Virus record (IMG/VR): IMGVR_UViG_3300027631_002380
Span: 1-20,292 of that record
Direction: 5' to 3' (one strand)
Origin: a virus
Length of the DNA stretch: 20,292 nt
The position numbers and the translations under genes are program-made. Of the stretch, positions 4,211 through 20,292 are shown piece after piece. The first letter of the stretch is position 1, and every line of letters starts with the position of its first letter. The notes beneath the pieces were generated by a model. The model saw nothing but the letters and a program-made list of their open reading frames with translations, ran no database searches and was not told where the DNA came from.

Positions 4211-4687
4211 ATGAAAAAGTATATGTTTCCTCTTGCCGCTGCAGCGGCGTTTGTAACTACACCTGCAATGGCAAATGATTTTGCGGGTGTTCGTGCAGAA
4301 GTGACTGCAGGTCTAGACGACGTTACTGGTGGTGTAGATACCACAAAAGTAGCGTACGGTGCAGGCATTGGTCTCGATGCTGAGCTATATAAGAACGTTG
4401 TAGTTGGTGTAGAAGCCACACTTGACAATGTCTTTGATCGTCGTAATATCGGTGCATCAGCTCGTCTTGGTTATGTAGTTGCTGATAAGGCACTCGTATA
4501 TGCGAAAGTTGGTTATTCCAACTGGAAGCAGACTACTGCTGCTGAACTCGAAGGTCTCCGTGTAGGAGGCGGCGTTGAAGCCAATCTATTTGGCCCAGTT
4601 TATGGCAAAGTAGAATATCGTTACACCGATTTTGATGGTGGCATTGGCCAGCACGGCGGTCTTGTAGGACTCGGTGTAAGGTTCTAA
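4211..4687 (+). CDS. Outer-membrane beta-barrel protein (porin-like, host-derived type)
   Basis: A 158-residue secreted protein. Residues 1-21 form a clear Sec signal peptide (charged MKKY, then an Ala-rich core ending TPAMA, cleavage before NDF). The mature part has alternating hydrophobic strands (GVEATLDNVF, GASARLGYVV, ALVYAKVGYSNW, LRVGGGVEANL, VYGKVEYRYTDF) and ends in GLGVRF, with the terminal Phe used by the BAM machinery: an eight-strand OmpA-transmembrane-like barrel. The DNVFDRRNIGASARLGY wording resembles alphaproteobacterial, especially sphingomonad, small porin-like proteins. Possible roles are altering the host surface or blocking superinfection; this is inference. AAAGG upstream is the likely ribosome binding site. 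Confidence 0.88.
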   Translation: MKKYMFPLAAAAAFVTTPAMANDFAGVRAEVTAGLDDVTGGVDTTKVAYGAGIGLDAELYKNVVVGVEATLDNVFDRRNIGASARLGYVVADKALVYAKVGYSNWKQTTAAELEGLRVGGGVEANLFGPVYGKVEYRYTDFDGGIGQHGGLVGLGVRF

Positions 4688-4870
4688 TTTAACACATAGA
4701 AATCAGTGGAAGATGATGGAGGTGCATCTCCAGATTCAAGGCACACTATGAGGGTCACTATAACTAGAACCCGAACTGCTGAACCATTGATGAAGCGACA
4801 GATCTAAGGAGTGGTACTCTTGCCCAACCAGCAATAGGTCTGTCGCTTCGCTTTATTCATGGAAATTATT
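4688..4870 (+). ncRNA. Structured non-coding region, candidate regulatory RNA
   Basis: The largest gene-free stretch in the window. The main element is a perfect 14-bp stem (counting one G-T pair): 4792-4805 pairs with 4836-4849 across a 30-base loop that itself holds a 6-bp hairpin (AGGAGT/ACTCTT). Upstream are two smaller hairpins, TGGAGG-TGCA-TCTCCA around 4718-4733 and GGGT/ACCC around 4752-4772. A T tract is lacking, so it is not a classical terminator. It could be a small RNA, an mRNA processing or stability structure, or a leader for the small gene at 4871 and peroxiredoxin. Confidence 0.4.
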
Positions 4871-5020
4871 ATGTGGCGTATTTGGGCAAAAGCTTTAGGT
4901 GAGAAAGCAACTCCTTGTGATCGCGAGTCTGATAGAGTCGCTTTGATCCGGACTCTTTTTATCGTACAAGCTGTCATAGCAAACATTTTTCTAATTGCAA
5001 ATGCAATTCATCATTGGTAG
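4871..5020 (+). CDS. Small membrane protein upstream of peroxiredoxin (49 aa)
   Basis: Begins MWRIWAKALGEKATPC, with a C-terminal hydrophobic segment (LFIVQAVIANIFLIANAI) and ends IHHW. GGAA lies seven bases upstream of ATG 4871; the in-frame ATG at 4859 is an alternative. Its stop TAG is part of the TAGGAG that serves as ribosome binding site for the peroxiredoxin gene nine bases on, so the two are in one unit. No family recognised. Confidence 0.6.
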   Translation: MWRIWAKALGEKATPCDRESDRVALIRTLFIVQAVIANIFLIANAIHHW

Positions 5021-5029
5021 GAGTAAATT

Positions 5030-5617
5030 ATGGTAGAACGTATTAAGATCAAAAGGTTTTGGGATATTGATGAGAATGTAGGCGATGAGCTGAAAACTCT
5101 TGTTCCAAGTGTAACTTTTAAAACTCGTGTTAGAGATGACTCGATTGGTGGTGACAATCCATATCGTTGGGAAGATGTCACCACATGGGATTTGTTCGCA
5201 GGTAAACGCGTGGTTCTCTTCTCTCTTCCGGGTGCATTCACTCCAACATGTTCGACTTATCAACTTCCTGGTTTCGAAGAGAAGTTTGCTGAATTCAAGG
5301 CTCTCGGAATTAAGGACATCTATTGTGTTTCGGTCAACGATGCGTTTGTGATGAATGCATGGGCGAAAGCACAGAAGGTGAAGAAAGTCAAGGTAATTCC
5401 TGACGGTTCAGGTATGTTCACTCGTAAGATGGGTATGCTAGTTCATAAAGATAATCTTGGTTTTGGTGAACGCTCGTGGCGTTACGCATGTGTCGTCAAT
5501 AATGGTAAGATCGAGAAATGGTTTATCGAACCAGGTGCCGAGGATAACTGTCCAGTAGATCCTTATGGCGAAACTGCTCCAGAAAACATCTTAAACTGGT
5601 TGAAAGAAAATGGATAA
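5030..5617 (+). CDS. Peroxiredoxin, Prx5 type
   Basis: A 195-residue thiol peroxidase of the AhpC/TSA superfamily that reduces hydrogen peroxide and organic peroxides. The active-site motif PGAFTPTC is at residues 67-74, with Cys74 as the peroxidatic cysteine; the following LPGFEEKFAEFKALGI and the CVSVNDAFVMNAWAKA segment (with Asn-Asp after the strand) are typical of the Prx5 group. The N-terminal ~55 residues have an inserted DNPYRWEDVT segment. No glutaredoxin domain follows, so the reductant must come from the host. Phage peroxiredoxins may protect the infected cell from oxidative damage. TAGGAG upstream; the 3' end overlaps the next gene. Confidence 0.93.
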   Translation: MVERIKIKRFWDIDENVGDELKTLVPSVTFKTRVRDDSIGGDNPYRWEDVTTWDLFAGKRVVLFSLPGAFTPTCSTYQLPGFEEKFAEFKALGIKDIYCVSVNDAFVMNAWAKAQKVKKVKVIPDGSGMFTRKMGMLVHKDNLGFGERSWRYACVVNNGKIEKWFIEPGAEDNCPVDPYGETAPENILNWLKENG

Positions 5618-7130: not shown

Positions 7131-8144
7131 TTGTCTAATTTTATTCGTTCTCGGTTAAAAGCATATCAGATCCGGCGTTTGGCTATCGACCTTTTTGGGT
7201 TCTGTAATGCCAAATGCTGGTATTGCCCTGTCAAGTATATTCCTCAGCCAGAATCTGGCATGAAGCAGATGGCCATCGAGGATGTCGAGAAGATCTTTCG
7301 AAAACTTATTGTCGAACGAGAGACACCGAACGGTGTAGTCAGTCCAGATTTTGAGCTTTTCTTAACTACACACTATAGCGAAGTCTTACTATACAAAAAC
7401 TTCGAGAAGCTGCTTGAGTTGGCAAAGCACTATGGATTGAAGACATTTGTTCTCAGTAATGGAATCAATGTGACGCCCGAAAAACTTGATATTATCAATA
7501 AATATACTCCATCGGTAATTCAAGAACTTGCTTTAAATATACCTGCCTTTGAAAGCGCAAAGCTTTGGTCAAAAAGATCAGGATTTCCTGAGAAACGCTT
7601 CGATGAAATGATGGCAAACCTTCAAAACTTGCATGATCATCCAGTGACTCGTAAGTTACAAGGAAGAGTAAAGCTGATTGTTAACGGTGTGAATGAACTG
7701 TCGTTTAAAACAGGATCTCTCAAGAAAGGTCCTAAATTTGAAGAGCTTGACATCGATCTCGATCTTTTTACAGGCGAGCATCAGAGGCAAGTAGATATTG
7801 CGACTAAGTTATTTCCTAAATTTGACATCGAAAAGTCTGAACTTATCGATCGTACTGGACTCATTGGTCAGTATATTACTGAAGAAGAATATATGAAAGA
7901 TCGTATGAAGAATCGTACGGTCGTCGGTTGTAATAATTGGGGCGATCGAAACTACGAGTGGTTAAGTGTTAATTCAAACGGAGATGCCATTCTTTGTTGT
8001 AATGATTATAACTTTGATTATATCTTTGGTAATATTCTCGAACAAGAACTCGATGAAATGTGGTACAGTGAGAAGCATGTCGAAACTATCGACAGAGCCT
8101 ATAACAACATTTGTACAAAGTGCAGCGCATCAGTCACGAAATAG
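7131..8144 (+). CDS. Radical SAM/SPASM-domain enzyme
   Basis: A 337-residue protein with a TTG start preceded by GAGGTG. The radical SAM motif CNAKCWYC (Cx3Cx2C) is at residues 25-32 and binds the 4Fe-4S cluster that cleaves S-adenosylmethionine. The C-terminus has a SPASM-like set of cysteines for extra clusters: C267, CC at 289-290, and CTKC at 328-331, with GNILEQELDEMW between, as in peptide- or protein-modifying SPASM enzymes. The middle of the protein has an unusual insert around ELNELSFKTGS and DIDLDLF. Substrate unknown; possible targets are phage or host proteins, or a small molecule. No obvious precursor peptide gene adjoins it. Confidence 0.9.
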   Translation: MSNFIRSRLKAYQIRRLAIDLFGFCNAKCWYCPVKYIPQPESGMKQMAIEDVEKIFRKLIVERETPNGVVSPDFELFLTTHYSEVLLYKNFEKLLELAKHYGLKTFVLSNGINVTPEKLDIINKYTPSVIQELALNIPAFESAKLWSKRSGFPEKRFDEMMANLQNLHDHPVTRKLQGRVKLIVNGVNELSFKTGSLKKGPKFEELDIDLDLFTGEHQRQVDIATKLFPKFDIEKSELIDRTGLIGQYITEEEYMKDRMKNRTVVGCNNWGDRNYEWLSVNSNGDAILCCNDYNFDYIFGNILEQELDEMWYSEKHVETIDRAYNNICTKCSASVTK

Positions 8145-8152
8145 TATAAATA
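8145..8152 (+). promoter_or_regulatory. TATAAATA, T4-type late promoter before the curli-like cluster
   Basis: An exact match to the T4 late consensus in a 13-base intergenic gap. T4 late promoters place this element at -13 to -6, so the transcript would start at about 8158, exactly the ATG of the first gene. This is the best candidate for late, gp55-type expression of the 8158-16617 cluster. Confidence 0.55.
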
Positions 8153-8157
8153 ATCGT

Positions 8158-8445
8158 ATGGGTTACGATACTATATTCAAAATTATTGGTGACGTCGGAT
8201 TCCCCATCGCAGCAGCATTGCTCGGTGGGGTTTTCGTTTATTTTGTTATCAACTATATCCTTGAGAGTGTTGTAAAAGCAATCAAGGGTATGCAGGGTAT
8301 TATCATGGGGCTTGACAATCGAGTCAAGACAATGAATCATGATATCATCCGTGTTGATGCTATAGTCAGTTCAGCTCTCGGTCTTCAACCAGACCTTGAC
8401 AGAATTGCCCGAGCAGACGGAAAGAACGATGCTCGGAAAGACTAA
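8158..8445 (+). CDS. Small single-pass membrane protein, paralogue A
   Basis: A 95-residue protein. One transmembrane helix follows a GDVGFPI motif (PIAAALLGGVFVYFVINYIL, about residues 15-34), then an amphipathic helix (GLDNRVKTMNHDIIRVDAIV) and a charged tail. There is no visible ribosome binding site; a transcript from the late promoter at 8145 would be leaderless. It is clearly related to the next gene in motif order (GFPI, TM, then DRV-type helix with ND-I-R). Small phage proteins with this plan include UviB/BhlA-type holin-like proteins, but the similarity is only in architecture. Stop and next ATG overlap (TAATG). Confidence 0.75.
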   Translation: MGYDTIFKIIGDVGFPIAAALLGGVFVYFVINYILESVVKAIKGMQGIIMGLDNRVKTMNHDIIRVDAIVSSALGLQPDLDRIARADGKNDARKD

Positions 8446-8696
8446 TGGATCCAGAACTGCTCGCAGAGCTTATAAAACAATACGGTTTTCCAATTGTCGC
8501 GTCTGTGGGAATGGGATATTTTGTTTGGTTCATTTATAAGTTTGTCACAGACAAATTAATGCCATTGATTGGCGAAACTAACGGTATTTTAATTGCACTA
8601 ATTGATCGTGTCCGCATGTTGGACAACGATCTCATTAGACTTCAGCAGAAGGTGAGTGTTGTTTTACAGATTAAGGATCCTCATAATGACAATTAA
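8445..8696 (+). CDS. Small single-pass membrane protein, paralogue B
   Basis: An 83-residue protein, paralogous to the preceding one: short N-terminal helix (ELLAELIKQY), GFPIVASVGMGYFVWFIYKFV transmembrane segment beginning about residue 15 (read as GFPIV then a hydrophobic stretch), then a helix with IALIDRVRMLDNDLIRLQQ resembling a coiled coil. Coupled by TAATG to paralogue A. The plan resembles UviB/BhlA-like holin-related proteins. Given its place directly before csgF, a role as an inner-membrane partner of the secretion module is equally possible. Evidence does not separate these. Confidence 0.75.
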   Translation: MDPELLAELIKQYGFPIVASVGMGYFVWFIYKFVTDKLMPLIGETNGILIALIDRVRMLDNDLIRLQQKVSVVLQIKDPHNDN

Positions 8697-8767
8697 TTTA
8701 AAAATTGAAATCCTTAAAGTATTCTGTCTTGAATTTGGGTTTTCTTCTGAAAAGAAAGAGGAAAAAG

Positions 8768-9208
8768 ATGTTCAAGAAAATATTGATTTGCTCGATATTC
8801 TTCAGCAGCCCAGCGGCAGCTGATCCGCTCGTACAACAGTTTAAAAGTCCATCCTTTAATGGATATGGATGGTCGTCACATGCGCAATCAATCGATGCAC
8901 AAGAACGTTCTCGTGAACAAGCAATCAAAGATGCCGAAGCCTCAAAGATTGCTCTTGCAAGAGCTGAAGCTTCGAACACGCCGCTTGCAAAATTTATGGC
9001 ACTATTCACCTCTCAGGTATATGCTCAGCTAGCCACACAGTTGTCAAACAATCTGTTTGCAGAAGGTTCGGCGCAACAAGGCATGTTTAATCTTGATGGT
9101 AATACGATTAGCTATGTAAAGACTGGCACATCGGTGACGTTGACAGTTGTCGACAAATTTGGTAATACGACAGTTGTGACTGTTCCTATTGCAACATTTG
9201 CATTTTAA
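8768..9208 (+). CDS. csgF: CsgF-like curli secretion accessory protein
   Basis: A 146-residue secreted protein. ATG 8768 is chosen over the in-frame ATG at 8705 because AAAGAGGA sits just upstream and it gives a clean signal peptide (MFKKILICSIFF...PAAA, cleavage before D19). The mature N-terminus has FKSPSFNG (25-32), matching the F-R-x-P-x-F-x-G pattern of E. coli CsgF, the part that inserts into the CsgG pore. The middle is an Ala/Glu-rich helix (RSREQAIKDAEASK), longer than in CsgF; then FTSQVYAQLATQLSNNLF and a C-terminal strand pair (TLTVVDKFGNTTVVTVPI), as in CsgF. It immediately precedes csgG. In curli systems CsgF caps the pore and helps anchor the nucleating fibre subunit. Confidence 0.88.
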   Translation: MFKKILICSIFFSSPAAADPLVQQFKSPSFNGYGWSSHAQSIDAQERSREQAIKDAEASKIALARAEASNTPLAKFMALFTSQVYAQLATQLSNNLFAEGSAQQGMFNLDGNTISYVKTGTSVTLTVVDKFGNTTVVTVPIATFAF

Positions 9209-9217
9209 GGAGAAGTT

Positions 9218-10042
9218 ATGAAAAAGCTTTTATTACTTCCATTACTTCTTATTACGACTGCTTGCGCCGGAGGAGTGCATCCTCATCTCAATCAGTCATA
9301 TCTTGCAAGAGAAGATGCTGAAGTAGAAAGATTTGCAAATCCTAAGTTGTTTAGAACTCTGCCAGAACTTGATGGTCAGGTAATTCCGATTGCCATCTAC
9401 TCGTTCACAGATAGAACAGGGCAACGCAAACCTTCTGCTACTCAAGCCAGCTTCTCGACAGCTGTCACACAAGGCGCAGATGCTTATGTTATCAAAACGT
9501 TGGCAGATGCTGGTGATGGCAAATGGTTTAAACCAGTAGAGCGTGTAGGCATTGATTCACTGATTAAAGAACGTCAACTCGTAAGACAGATGAGAGAGCA
9601 ACAACTCGGAGAAGGGGCTGAACCACTTCCTCCTTTGATGGTTGCAGGTATCATCCTTGAAGGTGGTATTATTGATTATAGTTCAAATACCAAAACTGGT
9701 GGTAACGGTGCAAGATTCCTTGGAATTGGTCCTTATCAACAGTATTCGGAAGATCAAGTTACTATTAGTATGCGACTCGTCTCAGTGCAAACAGGAGAAG
9801 TCCTAACATCTGTGACTGTTGAGAAAAATCTACTCTCTACATCCGAGGGAATTACAGCATTTAAGTTTTTCGATATGGGAACAAAGGCTTTTGAATTCGA
9901 TGGGCAACAAACATCAAATGAAGCCGGTAGTTATGCGATCCGTTCAGCCATAGAAACGGCCGTCGTTGAATTAATTAAGGATGGTGAACGTAAAGGTCTA
10001 TGGAGATTTAAGCAAAAGGAAACAACAAATGAAGGTAATTAA
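9218..10042 (+). CDS. csgG: CsgG-like outer-membrane curli secretion lipoprotein
   Basis: A 274-residue protein, close to the 277 of E. coli CsgG, the nonameric outer-membrane channel of type VIII (curli) secretion. Residues 1-15 form a lipoprotein signal with C16 as the lipidated cysteine (ITTAC). Matching regions include YSFTDRTGQRKP (61-72), FSTAVTQGADA (79-89), KWFKPVERVGIDSLIKERQ, GIILEGGIIDYSSN, GGNGARFLGIGPYQQY and AIRSAIETAVVELIKDG. In the pore-constriction loop Phe79 is kept, but the Tyr and Asn that accompany it in E. coli are replaced by Ser/Ala-type residues with one residue inserted. AAGGAGA is a strong ribosome binding site; the 3' end overlaps the curlin-like gene. Confidence 0.96.
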   Translation: MKKLLLLPLLLITTACAGGVHPHLNQSYLAREDAEVERFANPKLFRTLPELDGQVIPIAIYSFTDRTGQRKPSATQASFSTAVTQGADAYVIKTLADAGDGKWFKPVERVGIDSLIKERQLVRQMREQQLGEGAEPLPPLMVAGIILEGGIIDYSSNTKTGGNGARFLGIGPYQQYSEDQVTISMRLVSVQTGEVLTSVTVEKNLLSTSEGITAFKFFDMGTKAFEFDGQQTSNEAGSYAIRSAIETAVVELIKDGERKGLWRFKQKETTNEGN

Positions 10043-10802
10043 ATCTTTATTGGTTGGAGCTGCTCTTCTTTATGGAACATCAGTGACTGCACAAACAGTG
10101 CTACCGACAGCACCAACTCCACCAGCAATTGTAACTACATCACCAAATGAGGTGACTGCAGCTGCAGTAGCTACAACAAACAAAGTATATATCGATCAAG
10201 AAGGCGGCAATGTAGATGTTAACGTTGTTCAAACTGGTACTGCTAATATCATTGGCGACAATGATGATCCTATCTATTTACGAGGTGATAATCAAAGTGT
10301 CATCGCTATTCAAACCGGTAACGGAAACCAACTCTACATGGGCTTGGTCTCCGCTACAGGAGCACAAGGAATCGCAGCAGTAACAGTTCGTCAAATCGGC
10401 AATCTCAACACTGCAGACATCCGTTGTGGCACGCTGCAATCTGATGCTATCTGTAACCAGTTTGACCTAAATGCCAGATTTACAGGCGATTCAAACTCGC
10501 TCGTATTTCATGGTTCAGGCGAAAACATTCGTAACTCGATGGATATCACTGGTGATAACAATGCATTCAACATCGATGCACTCTCACCTAACGCAACTCA
10601 AACCATTCTCGTGACTGGTGATTACAATGACTTCGACGTGACACAGACAGGTCTCGGTGGAACATTCGGCCATTCACTGTATGTGAACCTTACAGGTACA
10701 CTGAACACCATTACAACCCAACAGTACGGAGCTTCTGAAACCGTAATCAATATTAACTCGGCGGGTTCAAATGGTACGTTTAATATTAAAACTGGTCATT
10801 AA
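10029..10802 (+). CDS. Secreted curlin-repeat-like protein 1 (candidate fibre subunit)
   Basis: A 257-residue protein. ATG 10029 is chosen because AAGGA lies eight bases upstream and it gives a signal peptide (MKVIKSLLVGAALLYGTSVTA, cleavage before Q22). After a Pro/Thr-rich linker (24-50) it has repeating short strands with Gln, Gly and Asn at turns, as in CsgA/CsgB: VYIDQEGGN (53-61), VNVVQTGTANIIGDN, IAIQTGNGNQ, VRQIGNLN, then GDSN, GDNN, GDYN and VTQTG units to the end. The repeats are less regular than in CsgA. As the gene directly after csgG, it is the likely secreted amyloid-type substrate. It has two cysteines, unlike typical curlins. Confidence 0.85.
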   Translation: MKVIKSLLVGAALLYGTSVTAQTVLPTAPTPPAIVTTSPNEVTAAAVATTNKVYIDQEGGNVDVNVVQTGTANIIGDNDDPIYLRGDNQSVIAIQTGNGNQLYMGLVSATGAQGIAAVTVRQIGNLNTADIRCGTLQSDAICNQFDLNARFTGDSNSLVFHGSGENIRNSMDITGDNNAFNIDALSPNATQTILVTGDYNDFDVTQTGLGGTFGHSLYVNLTGTLNTITTQQYGASETVININSAGSNGTFNIKTGH

Positions 10803-11907
10803 TGCACTCTTTCTGATATCGGTTCCCGCCTTTGCAGGTGTGGGATCGATATCAGAATTTCAGGGTGGAGGTTCCGTAAAGCGTGGTGCAAAGGTTGCGC
10901 CTGCTGCTAAAGGCTCGAGTATCGAGAAGAACGATACCGTATCGACCAATTCTCAAGGTAGATTTAAGATTCGATTCGTCGATGCCACCATGGTGAACAT
11001 CACACAAAATTCAAGGTTGGTCATCGACGATTTCGTGTATGATGGAAACAATAAGAGTAAAGGCAAGATTGGACTGAAACTCGCTTTAGGAACGGCGAGA
11101 TATACTTCTGGTGCGATTGCAAAGGGAAATTCAAAAGGTGTTGGTATACGTACACCGACTGCAACGATTGCTGTAAGAGGCACAGACTTTGTCATGTCTG
11201 TCGACGAAGCAGGTAGATCAACAGTTGTTTTGGTTCCTGAATGTTATAACGATAAAGATATTACAAAGCTCAACTTCGAATGTCCTTCAGGAGCTATCGA
11301 TGTCATCACTGCTGCAGGCATCGTCACTCTGACTCAGCCATTCCAAGCAACGATGGTCGAGAATTCTTATGCGCCTCCTGCGCCTCCTGTCGTCATTAAT
11401 CCTTCAATGAAGGGTATGGACAACAATATTCAGATCTCTCCTCTCGAAACGGATGACGGTCAATCACTCATCACTGCTGCTCGAGACGCGCTGAAGAAGT
11501 TTGTCAATCCTGCAAAGGCGGCATCTGACGACAATCAAGATCCAAATACTGGAGGAGATGGCGTAGAAGAAGTTGCAGTGGCGACTCTTCGTTTGCCTAC
11601 TCAAAACGAACTTCAAGACATTTATGCAGAGTATAACTCTGGAGAGAGACCGACTGAAACTGTCTACACGAACGTATCTCCTATCTTTAAAAAACAAATG
11701 CAAGTCGGATGGGTATACTCAAGAATTTCAGAAGATAAAAATCAAGTTGTCGTAATATGGTTACCAAAAGATACTGAAATTCAACTGGTTTCATCTCATA
11801 ACGGTATTGTCGACGCATACAATTTTATGGATGATAAATGGACCACGACAGGCACAGGTAGACCACAAGGAAATATCACCGTGATACAAGAGTCAGGTGC
11901 AAGATGA
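10771..11907 (+). CDS. Secreted FecR-domain protein
   Basis: A 378-residue protein with a signal peptide (MVRLILKLVINALFLISVPAFA, cleavage before G23). Residues ~30-145 are a FecR-type beta domain: VKRGAKVAPAAKGSSIEKND, TNSQGRFKIRFVDATMVNI, and the hallmark IRTPTATIAVRGTDF at 126-140. A ~165-residue C-terminal region of unknown fold follows, with a Pro-rich spacer (APPAPPVVINP). It lacks a transmembrane helix, so it is likely periplasmic or secreted rather than a membrane anti-sigma factor. The start overlaps the curlin gene by 32 bases. FecR-domain genes adjacent to CHASE2 cyclases are, as I recall, a recurring pair in bacteria. Confidence 0.87.
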   Translation: MVRLILKLVINALFLISVPAFAGVGSISEFQGGGSVKRGAKVAPAAKGSSIEKNDTVSTNSQGRFKIRFVDATMVNITQNSRLVIDDFVYDGNNKSKGKIGLKLALGTARYTSGAIAKGNSKGVGIRTPTATIAVRGTDFVMSVDEAGRSTVVLVPECYNDKDITKLNFECPSGAIDVITAAGIVTLTQPFQATMVENSYAPPAPPVVINPSMKGMDNNIQISPLETDDGQSLITAARDALKKFVNPAKAASDDNQDPNTGGDGVEEVAVATLRLPTQNELQDIYAEYNSGERPTETVYTNVSPIFKKQMQVGWVYSRISEDKNQVVVIWLPKDTEIQLVSSHNGIVDAYNFMDDKWTTTGTGRPQGNITVIQESGAR

Positions 11908-13364
11908 TGAGATGGATCTTCACACTACTACTGTTAACGTTCAGCGTGCAGTTAAATGCCCAGACTCCTTCAAACTATGGTTTCGAAGATGGAAATTATT
12001 CCGGTTGGACCGTGTCGAATGGCTCTACTGCACTTCGTACGTCATGGAGTGACAGTGGCAACGGTGTACAAGTGACAACTGGCATGCAAAATTATTGCCC
12101 TGGAGATGGTAAGTGTTGGACGATTACTCCGTATGGATCGTACATGCTATCGGTTCAGGCAGGAGGAAGTTCTCCTCAATTTAACGCCGCGATGACGACT
12201 CTTGGTCTTAGCGCTTCAAATATCACTTCTATTCGTAATACGATCTATTCAAACGGATCGATGTATCCTACAAACGCTTCTTCGGTCAGTCGAACAGTAT
12301 TTTTACAAACAGGAATTACATACTCGTTTGGTTGGCAGTATCTGTCGACAGACTATGTTCCGTATAACGATGGCTCTTTGATCACGTTAACTGGTGGACC
12401 AGGAACGCCAACTCTCAATGGTCAAACACAAAACTTTGCGCTATTAGGCTTTACAAATCCTGGAACAGGTAACTACTCTACCAATTCTTATGGTGCAACT
12501 GGATGGCAAGTTGCTGTATTCACGGTTCCAGCAGATGGCAACTATATGCTTGGCTTCTCATCGTTCAACCTCGGTGATACTGCACTTTCTCCTATCTTGT
12601 TCATCGATCAGTTGCAAGGAACTACGGCGTTGAATGGTACTACGTTTGCTCCTGTTGCTCCGAACGAAGGATCTTCTGCACCGACTGCACCACCTCCACC
12701 TCCTGCAGAACCAACATATCCAACTACATCGATTGCCACCAATCAAACTATCAAGCTCGGTCAGACGAATGCCATTACGAGCAACTCGATTTACATTCAG
12801 AACATCGGCGATAACAATACCGTTAACATCGAACAGTTCTCAAAGTTTAATGCTATCAGAGGAGTAAATGGTTCTCAAGCCATGTTGATTAATGGTAGCA
12901 ACAACTCTATCACTATCAATCAAGGTACTGCGATCGCAGTTCTTGGAAACAATCTTGCCGAAGTGTCTGTGACAGGGAGCAATAATACCGTGTCTCTGAC
13001 TCAGCAATATAATGGCAAGTATGCAGAGCTAGTAATGAATGGAACAGGAAATCAACTGACTGCTCAACAAAAAGATACTGGTGGAAAGTCTGCGTTCTTC
13101 AACATCTTAGGTAACTCAAATGTTGTGACAACTCTTCAGCAAGGAACTGGTAATCATTTCCTTGATATCAGCGCTCCGTATGGCGGATTGAATGCAAACA
13201 TCACTCAATCTGGTGATGCACAGAAGCTGTTTAAACTAGTAATAAATAATCCTGGAATTGGAGTCACTGTATCGCAAACTGCTGCGAGCGTTACTGACTC
13301 AGTCTTAATGTCAATCACTTGTGTCACTGGGCCTTGCACCGGATACAGTTATATAAAGAATTAA
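11904..13364 (+). CDS. Secreted lectin-like plus curlin-repeat protein 2
   Basis: A 486-residue protein. Signal peptide: MMRWIFTLLLLTFSVQLNA, cleavage before Q20. Residues ~24-245 form a beta-sandwich-like module starting NYGFEDGNYSGWT, a common opening of jelly-roll carbohydrate-binding or adhesin domains, with GVQVTTG, AVFTVPADGNYMLGFSS and FIDQL segments. A Pro-rich linker (257-272) leads to curlin-type repeats from residue 295 to ~470: SIYIQNIGDNNTVNIEQ, GSNNSITINQG, VTGSNNTVSLTQQ, GTGNQLTAQQ, LGNSNVVTTLQQGTGN and others. It resembles an adhesin tip fused to an amyloid stalk. It overlaps the FecR gene stop. The C-terminus has a CVTGPC pair. Confidence 0.85.
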   Translation: MMRWIFTLLLLTFSVQLNAQTPSNYGFEDGNYSGWTVSNGSTALRTSWSDSGNGVQVTTGMQNYCPGDGKCWTITPYGSYMLSVQAGGSSPQFNAAMTTLGLSASNITSIRNTIYSNGSMYPTNASSVSRTVFLQTGITYSFGWQYLSTDYVPYNDGSLITLTGGPGTPTLNGQTQNFALLGFTNPGTGNYSTNSYGATGWQVAVFTVPADGNYMLGFSSFNLGDTALSPILFIDQLQGTTALNGTTFAPVAPNEGSSAPTAPPPPPAEPTYPTTSIATNQTIKLGQTNAITSNSIYIQNIGDNNTVNIEQFSKFNAIRGVNGSQAMLINGSNNSITINQGTAIAVLGNNLAEVSVTGSNNTVSLTQQYNGKYAELVMNGTGNQLTAQQKDTGGKSAFFNILGNSNVVTTLQQGTGNHFLDISAPYGGLNANITQSGDAQKLFKLVINNPGIGVTVSQTAASVTDSVLMSITCVTGPCTGYSYIKN

Positions 13365-13366
13365 TC

Positions 13367-13954
13367 ATGATTATTTGTGTACACGACAATGGAAATTTAA
13401 ATGTTTTGTCTATGCCTAAATGCGGACACACTGCGATGTGGGAATATTTCGATCTACTGCATATACGACAATCGAGGACGTTTGCGGATTGGTTAAAATC
13501 CAATTCTCCAAAAGTAGTAGTGTTACGACATCCTGCAGAGCGAATGCATTCTGCTATTACATTTTGTAACGAAATGTGGGACACGCGGAGTATAGAATAT
13601 AAAAAAACAGGGAAATGTTTTGACTTTCCGGAAATAGAACAATGGGTCAACCTCAATAGCACTGATCGCAGGCGGTCAATAGATGAGTTTATTTTTAATC
13701 AACACTGTCGGCCGTATATGCATATTATAAAAAATAGAGATTTTAGAATTATAAAATTTGAAGATTTGTCTCAATATGTTCCAAAGATATTGCCGGGAGG
13801 TATTGACACAAATACTACAAATAAAAATATAGATCCTTTTCCAAAGAATAGATACTTTAAACGGGAAGATATGTTAAGAGAGATTGAATTGTACGAGAGT
13901 TTTTTAGTAAATAGAGAAGTTATAACGCCTGAAGAATGGAAAGCGTTGACATGA
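13367..13954 (+). CDS. Sulfotransferase-like P-loop protein
   Basis: A 195-residue protein starting at ATG 13367 (MIICVHDNGNLNVL), three bases after the preceding stop. MPKCGHTAM (16-24) matches the 5'-phosphosulfate-binding loop of PAPS-dependent sulfotransferases, and VVLRHPAERMHSAI (51-64) matches the 3'-phosphate-binding segment. The protein is shorter than usual (about 250-300), so substrate parts may be reduced. The gene looks more AT-rich than its neighbours, with many AAA/ATA/TTT codons, hinting at separate acquisition. A sulfated target such as a surface glycan or the exported fibre is possible, not shown. Confidence 0.75.
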   Translation: MIICVHDNGNLNVLSMPKCGHTAMWEYFDLLHIRQSRTFADWLKSNSPKVVVLRHPAERMHSAITFCNEMWDTRSIEYKKTGKCFDFPEIEQWVNLNSTDRRRSIDEFIFNQHCRPYMHIIKNRDFRIIKFEDLSQYVPKILPGGIDTNTTNKNIDPFPKNRYFKREDMLREIELYESFLVNREVITPEEWKALT

Positions 13955-15996
13955 TGAAAAAGATTCTATTGAGCCCATGGCTTGCTCTCTTTACATTTGC
14001 ACTATTACTTACTTTTAAATTACAAGATCCGTACTTAGTTGAAGCGACTCGTCTTAAATTTTATGACTACATCATGCTTGATAAAGCAAAGCAATCTGAG
14101 CAGATTGTAGTCATAAATTTAGGGGAGAAATCAATTGAAAAATATGGTCAGTGGCCCTTCCCGCGCGAAGTCCACGCTAAAATCCTTGATGAAATCTATA
14201 GCAGAAGGGCTGCTCTTGTTGGCAGCACTATACTTATGCTCGAGCCTGATCGCATGGGCACTGATAGTGCTCTTGCAGATACCTTAAACAAATATCCAGT
14301 CGTTCTCAGTCAGACTGTAAGCGACTCTTGTTCTCGGGTAAGTACGACAATTCGGAAAACAGGCGTTGCCGTAATCGGCGATGGAGAAGCAACTGAATTT
14401 CTTCCTCAATACCCATGCGTTCTAAGTAATGTCTCAATTCTTCAAGAAGCCGCAGTCGGTGTTGGGATAACGTCAACCCTACCCGAGACCGATGGGGTTG
14501 TGAGGCGAGTTCCTCTTCTATCTGAGTCATCAGGCGAATACTATCCTGCATTTGCTCTAGAGATGCTGCGTGTAGCTGCAGGAGACTCTTCGTATCAAGC
14601 CAAGATAAATCAGACTGGGGTTGAAGCATTACGAATTCCTTCTTTTGAAACAATTAAAACAGACGAATATGGAAGAGTGTTCATCAATCCGAACTATCGA
14701 TTTGAGTCATACGAAATTGGTGCGGGGCCTTTGCCTGATCTGGCAGGTAAAATCGTGATTCTCGGAGTGACTGCAGCTGGATTAAGTAATCCCGTAGCGA
14801 CTCCGTCAGGTGCGCAGTATCCCCATCAGCTCCAGGCGAGTATTCTTGAGACTCTGATAATTGGTGATTCTGTTTCAATTCCGAATTGGACTCAGCTTGT
14901 AGATTTGGCTGCTCTACTTGTTTTGGCTCTGTCATTAATCATGATCTCTCGATTAAAATATTCTATTGTCTGGATAGCTTTGATTCTAGGTGGATACCTT
15001 TACTTACCTATATATTTATTCGCGAGTAAAGGAATCTTGTTAGACGTGACGTTTAACGTGATGGCCATCGCGATTATCTATATGCATATTTATACCGTAA
15101 AGTTTATTAGCGAGTTCATGCAGAAGCAACAAATTAAGAAACAGTTCGGAACATATCTGAGTCCAGATTTGGTTGCGAGATTGCAAAGACAACCAGAACT
15201 TTTGAAACTCGGTGGAGAATCAAGAGAGCTTTCGATTATGTTCACTGACGTTCGAGGATTTACTACAATCTCTGAGCACTACGGAGAAGATGTCCAAGGT
15301 TTGACTTCAATTATGAATCGTTATATGACTGTCATGACAAAAGCGATTTTGGAAAATAACGGGACATTAGATAAGTATATTGGTGATGCACAGATGGCAT
15401 TCTGGAATGCTCCACTCGATAATAATAAACATGCTTTGGATGCCGTTCGAACTGCTTTTCAGATGCTCAAAGACTTGGAGATATTTAATGAAGAAGTTAA
15501 AAGCGAAGGCATACCCGCTTTTGGGATGGGTCTTGGTATTAACACTGCCACTGTGGTTGTTGGCAATATGGGCAGTACTCAGCGTTTTGACTATACTTGC
15601 TTGGGGGATGGCGTTAATTTGGCTGCTCGTTTGGAAGGTCAATCCAAGCCTTATGGGGTCAAACTTGTCGTCGGGCCACAAACTGCCGAATTGGTTAGGG
15701 ATGTATACCAAGTAGTTGAGCTTGATCTCATTGCTGTGAAAGGCAAGACAGAGCCTGCTCGCATCTATACCATTTTTGATGTTGCTGATGGCGCAGGAGA
15801 ACTCCTACATAAGAAGTTTCTCGATCTCTATCGTCAAGGAAAATGGGACGCAGCTCTTAATCTGATAAAAGATCTCAAGCGTTGTTGGAACGAAGAGCTC
15901 AATGCCTACTACAAAATGATGGAAGAACGCATTCAGGATCTGAAGTTTGAAGAACCGTGGGAATGGGACGGAATTTATAGAGCTACAAGTAAGTGA
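13951..15996 (+). CDS. CHASE2-domain transmembrane adenylate cyclase
   Basis: A 681-residue membrane receptor enzyme making cAMP. TM1 is about residues 6-22; a periplasmic CHASE2 sensor domain follows (about 30-305, with YDYIMLDKAKQSEQIVVINLGEKS then QWPFPREVHAKIL); three more TM segments lie about 316-385; the class III cyclase domain spans about 425-610. Catalytic residues are present: metal-binding D433 (FTDVRGF) and D479 (DKYIGDA), adenine-specifying K475 and D553 (CLGDGVN), transition-state N556 and R560. So it is predicted active and adenylyl-specific. A C-terminal helical tail (~615-681) may be regulatory. The ATG overlaps the preceding stop (ATGA). I know of no well-characterised phage-encoded CHASE2 cyclase. 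Confidence 0.95.
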   Translation: MMKKILLSPWLALFTFALLLTFKLQDPYLVEATRLKFYDYIMLDKAKQSEQIVVINLGEKSIEKYGQWPFPREVHAKILDEIYSRRAALVGSTILMLEPDRMGTDSALADTLNKYPVVLSQTVSDSCSRVSTTIRKTGVAVIGDGEATEFLPQYPCVLSNVSILQEAAVGVGITSTLPETDGVVRRVPLLSESSGEYYPAFALEMLRVAAGDSSYQAKINQTGVEALRIPSFETIKTDEYGRVFINPNYRFESYEIGAGPLPDLAGKIVILGVTAAGLSNPVATPSGAQYPHQLQASILETLIIGDSVSIPNWTQLVDLAALLVLALSLIMISRLKYSIVWIALILGGYLYLPIYLFASKGILLDVTFNVMAIAIIYMHIYTVKFISEFMQKQQIKKQFGTYLSPDLVARLQRQPELLKLGGESRELSIMFTDVRGFTTISEHYGEDVQGLTSIMNRYMTVMTKAILENNGTLDKYIGDAQMAFWNAPLDNNKHALDAVRTAFQMLKDLEIFNEEVKSEGIPAFGMGLGINTATVVVGNMGSTQRFDYTCLGDGVNLAARLEGQSKPYGVKLVVGPQTAELVRDVYQVVELDLIAVKGKTEPARIYTIFDVADGAGELLHKKFLDLYRQGKWDAALNLIKDLKRCWNEELNAYYKMMEERIQDLKFEEPWEWDGIYRATSK

Positions 15997-16002
15997 GGTA
16001 AT

Positions 16003-16617
16003 ATGATTAATGATACGATGATGGCTTCTTATCAAGCCGAATTTAAAAAAAACGGTTTTGTTAAAATTAAAAACGTTCTTTCTCCCGAGATCATAGAACT
16101 CTATAAATCTTTTATCGATATTTCTCATCTTATCGATATGAGAAAGATAGAAACCGGAACATATTTGGCTGGAAACATTCAGTCTGTCGCTGAAAATGTT
16201 CTCGATAGTAGCATACTCTTATACTGTAAACATATCATAGAAAAGATATGGGAAATCGATGATTTAGTTCCATCATATGCTTACTCTCGGGAATATTTCC
16301 CTGGAGCTGAGCTAAAAAATCATCGAGATCGAGAAGCGTGTCAATATTCTGTCACTCTTACAATGTGTAAGAGAGGAGAAGGAAACACTCCTTTATGGTT
16401 TAGTGATTCAGATGATAAGAGCAATCCGATACCAGTTGACCTCGACGAAGGCGACGCTATTATTTTTAACGGCGGATCAAACTATGGAGGCAAGTGGCAC
16501 TGGAGAGATCCTCTCGAGATCGATTCATTAGTTCAATTGTTTCTTCATTATGTCCATCCAGACACACCGCACCTCGCAGACAATAACTATCCTCGGCCTT
16601 TTTATCGTTCACGCTGA
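16003..16617 (+). CDS. 2-oxoglutarate/Fe(II)-dependent oxygenase-like protein
   Basis: A 204-residue protein of the cupin-fold dioxygenase type common in phages. The iron-binding HxD is H107-R-D109 (KNHRDREACQYSVTL), and the distal His is probably H166 in KWHWRDP; the DEGDAIIFNGG strand (148-158) precedes it, as in prolyl-hydroxylase-like proteins. GAGGT six bases upstream of the ATG is a good ribosome binding site. Such enzymes hydroxylate proteins, nucleic acids or small molecules; the target is unknown. It follows the cyclase by six bases and is the last gene before the promoter at 16626, so it may belong to the cluster's transcript. Confidence 0.82.
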   Translation: MINDTMMASYQAEFKKNGFVKIKNVLSPEIIELYKSFIDISHLIDMRKIETGTYLAGNIQSVAENVLDSSILLYCKHIIEKIWEIDDLVPSYAYSREYFPGAELKNHRDREACQYSVTLTMCKRGEGNTPLWFSDSDDKSNPIPVDLDEGDAIIFNGGSNYGGKWHWRDPLEIDSLVQLFLHYVHPDTPHLADNNYPRPFYRSR

Positions 16618-16655: not shown

Positions 16656-16682
16656 GGACCTATAATGATGAGGAACGAAAAC

Positions 16683-19289: not shown

Positions 19290-20292
19290 TTATCCCCAAT
19301 TGGCGTATTGTTTTGTTTTCTTTAAACGATCGTCAAGACCATGTGTACCGCCATTCACTCGCTTTGTAATCTGAGTGATGATAGCATCCGATACACCTTT
19401 GTCTGCAATTGCAAGCAATCCATTTTTACGGAAGAACCATAATGCAGACTCAAAAGCCAACTCACCAACCACAAGATCAGGATTCGTTAAGACGTCAGGT
19501 CGTTTTACGTCAGCGGCAAAGGCTGTATAGTTGTCTTTCCCGGTCAGTTGAATCGGGCCTCGACCACGATACTTCCAACCATCTCCAGAGGCTTCTGAAC
19601 CGTTCCCCATCCGATTAGCATACACTTTGTTTGCAATCTTTTCTGGTTTACGTGCATAACCTGCAGTCGAAGCGATCGTAGGAAAATACTTCTTGAAGAT
19701 TCCGTTGAGTCCCTTATCAGAATAGTTCAGGTTCTCAGAGAACACCTTAAACCCACCTGACTCATGCGCGCACTGACCAAAGAAGTGTGCAGCCTGAGTA
19801 TTCGATAGTTTGAAATAATCTCTGGCGGTCACATAAGTTCCTGGTCCCCATTTACCGTCGGCAGTAATGCCGCATTTCGTTTGGAGAGCAGCTAATGGAC
19901 CAAGACCAGATACTTTTGAAGGAGCAGCCGGAGACGACTGAGGAGGCGCTTGCTTTGGCGCTGTGGCGATTGAAGGAGCCCCAGCTGCCTTTGTCGTCGA
20001 TGGATCAAAGTCAGCGACCGTTGTATAGACGGTACCGCCTGCCTTCGACTTCGAAGCAATCATACGCATCTTACGATTACCGCCAGCTTTCTTGATCGAA
20101 GCGTGAACCCAACCAGAATTCTTATCACCCTTGGTGTAAAACTCGAGAATGATTTGGTCAAACTCGAGATTGTCACCGATCCAATCGGCAACAGTTTTGT
20201 TGTCAATACCAGGAATTTCGAAGTCGATCGCTTGGCCGTTGACGTGTTGTGATGTCTTCGATCCGCCAACTGCCTTGTTCACCAACGGTGCA
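19290..20292 (-). CDS. Two-domain lysin: M15 peptidase plus GH19 glycosidase, N-terminus cut
   Basis: A minus-strand gene entering from the right edge; at least 333 residues are visible and the start lies outside (a TTG at 20285 is internal). The N-terminal part has an M15-type peptidase signature, GGSKTSQHVNGQAIDFEIPG with the zinc-ligand pattern S-x-H-x-x-G-x-A-x-D, and WVHAS as the later His. A short Pro/Ala-rich linker (APKQAPPQSSPAAP) joins it to a GH19 chitinase/lysozyme-type domain: FFGQCAHESGGF with the catalytic Glu, NLNYSDKGL, YRGRGPIQLTGKDNY and ALWFFRKNGL. It would cut both peptide and glycan bonds of peptidoglycan. No signal peptide can be judged. It is the only clear minus-strand gene. 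Confidence 0.92.
   Translation of the reverse strand, partial: APLVNKAVGGSKTSQHVNGQAIDFEIPGIDNKTVADWIGDNLEFDQIILEFYTKGDKNSGWVHASIKKAGGNRKMRMIASKSKAGGTVYTTVADFDPSTTKAAGAPSIATAPKQAPPQSSPAAPSKVSGLGPLAALQTKCGITADGKWGPGTYVTARDYFKLSNTQAAHFFGQCAHESGGFKVFSENLNYSDKGLNGIFKKYFPTIASTAGYARKPEKIANKVYANRMGNGSEASGDGWKYRGRGPIQLTGKDNYTAFAADVKRPDVLTNPDLVVGELAFESALWFFRKNGLLAIADKGVSDAIITQITKRVNGGTHGLDDRLKKTKQYANWG

Follow-up and report, generated by a model that had tools for sequence, protein, structure and literature searches.

What use would a T4-type phage have for a curli secretion system? The question is raised by a 20,292-bp virus record (the window, that is, the whole stretch of DNA analysed here), with a G+C content of 42%, which we take from its IMG numbers to belong to an aquatic phage. 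T4-type genes were found at the left end of the window (gp44 lid, clamp-loader A subunit and RegA by domain search), followed by five tRNAs. From position 8158 onwards there is a run of same-strand genes in the order sm1, sm2, CsgF, CsgG, curA, FecR, curB, sulfotransferase-like, CHASE2 cyclase and PhyH-like:

8145..8152, plus strand: T4-type late promoter TATAAATA, exact match, 13 bp before sm1; one of three in the window
8158..8445, plus strand: sm1, 95 aa, single-pass membrane and coiled-coil protein (phrog_18771)
8445..8696, plus strand: sm2, 83-aa paralogue of sm1
8768..9208, plus strand: CsgF homologue with signal peptide (PF10614, 2.2e-16)
9218..10042, plus strand: CsgG outer-membrane pore lipoprotein (PF03783, 3.3e-51; profile match to E. 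coli CsgG, 2e-71)
10029..10802, plus strand: curA, secreted curlin-repeat protein, candidate fibre subunit (repeats, profile match to curlins, AlphaFold2)
10771..11907, plus strand: FecR-domain protein, secreted or periplasmic (PF04773, 1.4e-12)
11904..13364, plus strand: curB, with a beta-rich head (about residues 20-270), a Pro-rich linker and C-terminal curlin repeats
13365..13953, plus strand: private insertion with a sulfotransferase-like gene (ORF 13367-13954), absent from L017, L010 and L004
13954..15996, plus strand: CHASE2 class III adenylate cyclase (Pfam CHASE2, 1.9e-38; Guanylate_cyc, 1.4e-17)
16003..16617, plus strand: PhyH-like Fe(II) oxygenase, an optional neighbour (PHROG match and sub-threshold PhyH)

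We consider it probable that this block is a type VIII secretion (curli) cassette, specialised to phages and expressed late, whose curlin fibre would display carbohydrate-binding heads from the infected cell.

Composition and phage origin of the block

The sequence-only reading of this DNA had described a curli-type block with CsgF, CsgG, two curlin-repeat proteins, a FecR protein and a CHASE2 cyclase on one strand, and this was confirmed by Pfam and by repeat tests. Its broader claim, that a T4-like phage holds a full type VIII module equipped with substrates, a sensor and a cyclase, is likewise supported. The genes are spaced by -32 to +9 bp, except for 71 bp before csgF, and signal peptides or a lipobox could be read from the sequences of CsgF, CsgG, curA, the FecR protein and curB.

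The core genes of the earlier gene list therefore stand, but sm1 and sm2 at the start of the block had been overlooked, and two genes that it counted as members do not belong. In the alignment to L017, L010 and L004, positions 13365-13953 are a 589-bp insertion that takes up precisely the stretch from the curB stop to the cyclase start; in these three loci the curB stop is joined to the cyclase ATG. The inserted gene gave no Pfam, PHROG or NCBIfam match and is called sulfotransferase-like from its motifs alone. Paralogues of it (27-33%) occur upstream of sm1 in L015, L016, L018, L022 and L037. The oxygenase has a PHROG match (2.5e-28, labelled 'ferrochelatase') besides the sub-threshold PhyH match, and its gene is present in L007-L009 and L014 and missing from L017 and L010. 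Both genes were thus rejected as parts of the module, the former being private to the window and the latter optional.

An assembly error that attached a bacterial curli locus to phage DNA is almost certainly not the explanation. In near relatives a single contig carries both the Gp23 capsid gene and CsgG, T4 Gp23 and CsgG occur together on many independent contigs of 96-344 kb, the isolates HTVC008M and Melnitz carry the module, and phage CsgG forms a clade of its own. No point in favour of a misjoin, which the sequence-only reading had named as a refuting condition, was found, and we reject it; the phage origin of the cluster stands.

What did not survive is the supposed novelty of the full phage module. 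CsgF and CsgG were reported in pelagimyophages, with the comment that their 'function is unclear' (Zaragoza-Solas et al. 2020, PMC7029224), the full set with curlins, FecR and adenylate cyclase was described in pelagiphages (Wittmers et al. 2022, PMC9599517), and a module in methylophage Melnitz was proposed to act in lysis (Buchholz et al. 2022, PMC9004378). Since HTVC008M and Melnitz share the gene order, as do dozens of IMG/VR loci, and the full set is published, the claim was wrong. The pelagiphage module shares with the window CsgF, CsgG, a curlin, FecR, a second curlin and an adenylate cyclase in the same order, with small genes before them; its published form is also preceded by a histidine kinase, for which no match was found in the window. 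The window CsgG is only about 46% identical to that of HTVC008M. Sampled pelagimyophages have a G+C content of 32%, against 42% in the window, and in HTVC008M and Melnitz the module adjoins ssb and tape-measure genes, whereas in the window it lies near clamp-loader, regA and tRNA genes. What is new here is a cassette behind a late phage promoter, with one fibre protein that bears swappable, probably sugar-binding, heads. A word search of PMC9599517 found neither the late promoter, nor the head domains, nor the non-kinase nature of the small genes.

Late promoter, small membrane pair and loss of the csg block

The exact T4 late promoter TATAAATA at 8145-8152 is conserved before sm1 among relatives and supports the late expression that had been proposed from the window alone. 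The motif ATAAATA lies at most 60 bp from sm1 in 51 of 79 distinct loci, against 6.6% of other ORFs in the same loci, and in a pelagimyophage group devoid of the small pair csgF itself has the late motif at about -30 in nearly every locus. The module thus appears to sit behind a T4-type late phage promoter. In the window lineage, the promoter spacing (8145-8158) would put the mRNA start at the A of the sm1 ATG, which predicts a leaderless transcript; other lineages have 30-45 bp between promoter and sm1, and a ribosome site.

The paralogous membrane and coiled-coil proteins sm1 (95 aa) and sm2 (83 aa) are apparently the genes labelled 'HK', one or two of which precede the module in podoviral and myoviral pelagiphages (PMC9599517), the correspondence being drawn by position and not by comparison with the published sequences. 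None of 24 small-pair members matched HisKA, HATPase or any other kinase family. A histidine kinase identity is unsupported for proteins of 83-95 aa with no kinase domain, and the mismatch may stem from the published label. On the other hand, 12 of the 24 matched the holin phrog_4898, mostly weakly (best 1.1e-5). Identity to HTVC008M and Melnitz is 45-54% for sm1/sm2 and 44-45% for CsgG; between divergent phages the small pair is conserved as much as CsgG or more. Among 50,697 phage records, the pair was found in the same six as the csg module, which represent two lineages only. L041 has a second sm1 copy (7579-7854 and 9047-9319), and four apparent phage contigs with the small pair (L163, L166, L168 and L170) had been binned into MAGs labelled Pirellulales, Flavobacteriaceae and Thaumarchaeota.

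These data bear directly on the proposal of Buchholz et al. (2022) that the CsgG pore has been turned to lysis: it would open late and so depolarise the envelope, sm1 and sm2 being the holins. The late promoter upstream of the block and the phrog_4898 matches agree with it, as do a spanin-like gene pair, read from sequence, that immediately precedes the cyclase and csgF in the sm-less pelagimyophages L046 (6316-7144) and L063 (5000-5783), and the lack of a visible CsgE. Nevertheless, there are close relatives in which the csg block is gone altogether and the small pair persists. In L086, sm2 directly adjoins a homologue of the window gene at 16665; in L088 and L089 the csgF start alone remains of the block, and in L092 it is fused to the tail of the cyclase. 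No csgG was found on the records of these four loci, and because they keep the small pair, lysis does not need csg. A pore-only role also leaves unexplained the purifying selection on the curlin proteins and the head swapping described below. We regard this proposal as quite unlikely.

Such scars and block-less relatives indicate that the csg block is a cassette that can be lost while the small pair stays. Among distinct IMG/VR small-pair loci with at least 9 kb on each side, 31 of 33 have csgG on the record, and the other two keep csgF scars. The small pair probably serves a separate, holin-like late function, with the cassette sitting behind it.

Curlin proteins and their swappable heads

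Both curlin proteins matched Pfam Curlin_rpt (0.0021 and 0.003), below the curated cut-off in each case. The repeats nonetheless outnumber those in shuffled sequences: QxGxxN occurs three times in curA against 0.18 in shuffles, and GxxNx5Q five times in curB against 0.32. Moreover, a profile of curA relatives matches the solved curlins 8c50 (2.8e-13) and E. coli CsgA 8enq (2.9e-4). The sequence-only reading had made curlin-like structure a check on both proteins. The AlphaFold2 model of curA consists of stacked strands (pLDDT 82.7), but it has no significant match among PDB folds (CsgA 8c50 comes seventh, E 0.31), and the curB model is of low confidence overall. Every module gene, including both parts of curB, has a dN/dS of 0.01-0.18 among window relatives, comparisons with saturated dS being left out; CsgF, CsgG, curA, FecR, curB and the cyclase are thus intact and all under purifying selection.

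Such conservation is hard to reconcile with the simplest case raised by Zaragoza-Solas et al. (2020), an open pore for nutrient uptake with vestigial curlins. The absence of a visible CsgE gate and the fact that the host taxa of known phages have no curli (PMC7029224, PMC9004378) would fit it, but the strong conservation extends to CsgF as well as to the two curlins, and we consider it very improbable.

Sequence comparison revealed curB to be a conserved C-terminal curlin tail joined to a swappable N-terminal head. In pairwise blastp, L007 (window type) and L130 share 57% identity in the head and 30% in the tail, L115 and L132 share 60% and 30%, respectively, and L115 and L130 share 64% in the tail with no similarity in the head, which shows that heads and tails recombine independently of each other. 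These relations were taken from pairwise blastp, as phmmer clustering and single-linkage blastp merged nearly all heads. PA14 heads were found on curB of HTVC008M (L001), L098 and L137, and F5/8 type C heads on 5 of 18 curB proteins scanned. For the window head, Foldseek pointed to carbohydrate-binding modules (CBM61, prob 1.00, TMt 0.59, E 0.02-0.1), and there is a weak PEP-CTERM-family match (2.4e-4); with a head model of pLDDT 55, its CBM-like assignment is of low confidence. HTVC008M curB thus has a PA14 head and the window a CBM-like one, whereas Melnitz curB has no evident head. As many loci also have no curB, the head is not essential.

The curB heads are probably sugar-binding, and their presence in several phages lends backing to the adhesive part of the surface-fibre reading first made from the window. 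PA14 is not mentioned in either 2022 paper (PMC9599517, PMC9004378; word search), and our literature search found no paper linking the PA14 domain, curlin and phage; we have not found swappable curB heads in the published descriptions of the module that were consulted.

Proposed function, distribution and origin

The FecR protein does not resemble the FecR iron-citrate regulator in its architecture: no cytoplasmic anti-sigma domain precedes FecR, the signal peptide does so directly, and no other Pfam domain was found. In the cyclase, the metal-binding Asp, the substrate Lys and Asp and the transition-state Asn and Arg, residues whose roles are general knowledge for class III cyclases, are present in all or nearly all of eight aligned phage copies. 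Its profile matches P. aeruginosa CyaB (3r5g, 3.4e-46), which shares the class III domain and is also CHASE2-linked; the phage cyclase, by contrast, sits in a curli operon.

In the cassette model that we favour, the late promoter would open the block and the csg genes would be expressed late in infection. The CsgG-CsgF pore would export curA, which would polymerise into a curli-like fibre, and curB would co-assemble through its curlin tail with its head displayed outside. Infected cells or their debris may then stick to sugars on particles or other cells. While export is under way, the FecR protein and the CHASE2 cyclase would probably monitor the periplasm or envelope, with a rise in cAMP as the output. 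The most likely benefit is that the infected cell, or its debris, would adhere or aggregate. More tentatively, T4-like phages of many lineages may have kept a dedicated curli system, long apart from bacterial curli, and may use it to display swappable carbohydrate-binding heads on late-infected cells, so that the dying cell and not the virion would bear a receptor-binding apparatus. Several points count against the cassette model: no CsgE was seen, curA has no significant fold match, the window head is of low confidence, and cultures with Melnitz did not clump according to its authors (PMC9004378).

Superinfection exclusion, in which the fibre would mask or occupy phage receptors and cAMP would alter host surface genes, has in its favour that the products are surface-exposed, that head turnover fits an arms race and that the cyclase residues are intact. 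Late expression, however, would come late for exclusion, and sugar-binding heads suggest binding and not masking, so that we hold it to be unlikely.

The function of phage curli has been open since 2020 (PMC7029224), and the late promoter, the natural loss of the cassette and the swappable heads now make it testable. Should infection make cells sticky, these phages could have an effect on how particles form and how carbon is exported in lakes and oceans.

With bacterial curli (csgBAC-csgDEFG) the window shares CsgG, CsgF and curlin repeats. CsgE and CsgD, on the contrary, had no Pfam match among the window ORFs scanned, the window being a genome fragment. When 66 CsgG sequences from phages were placed in a tree with 25 from bacteria, a limited bacterial sample, those of phages made up one clade on one side of a branch (support 100/98). 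The 25 bacterial csgG genes had neither FecR nor a cyclase nor the small pair within about 8 kb, and capture of a ready-made bacterial FecR-cyclase-curli operon was rejected on these loci, with the reservation that the FecR profile may miss distant FecR. The module seems to extend well beyond the phages of SAR11 and OM43 from which it was reported. A csgG on a 1,499-bp record named Salmonella phage (OR851715.1, 310-957) is probably host DNA. Elsewhere in the window, we observed a phage-borne outer-membrane beta-barrel protein with a peroxiredoxin (4211-5617) and, on the minus strand, a GH19 plus M15-type endolysin (19290-20285).
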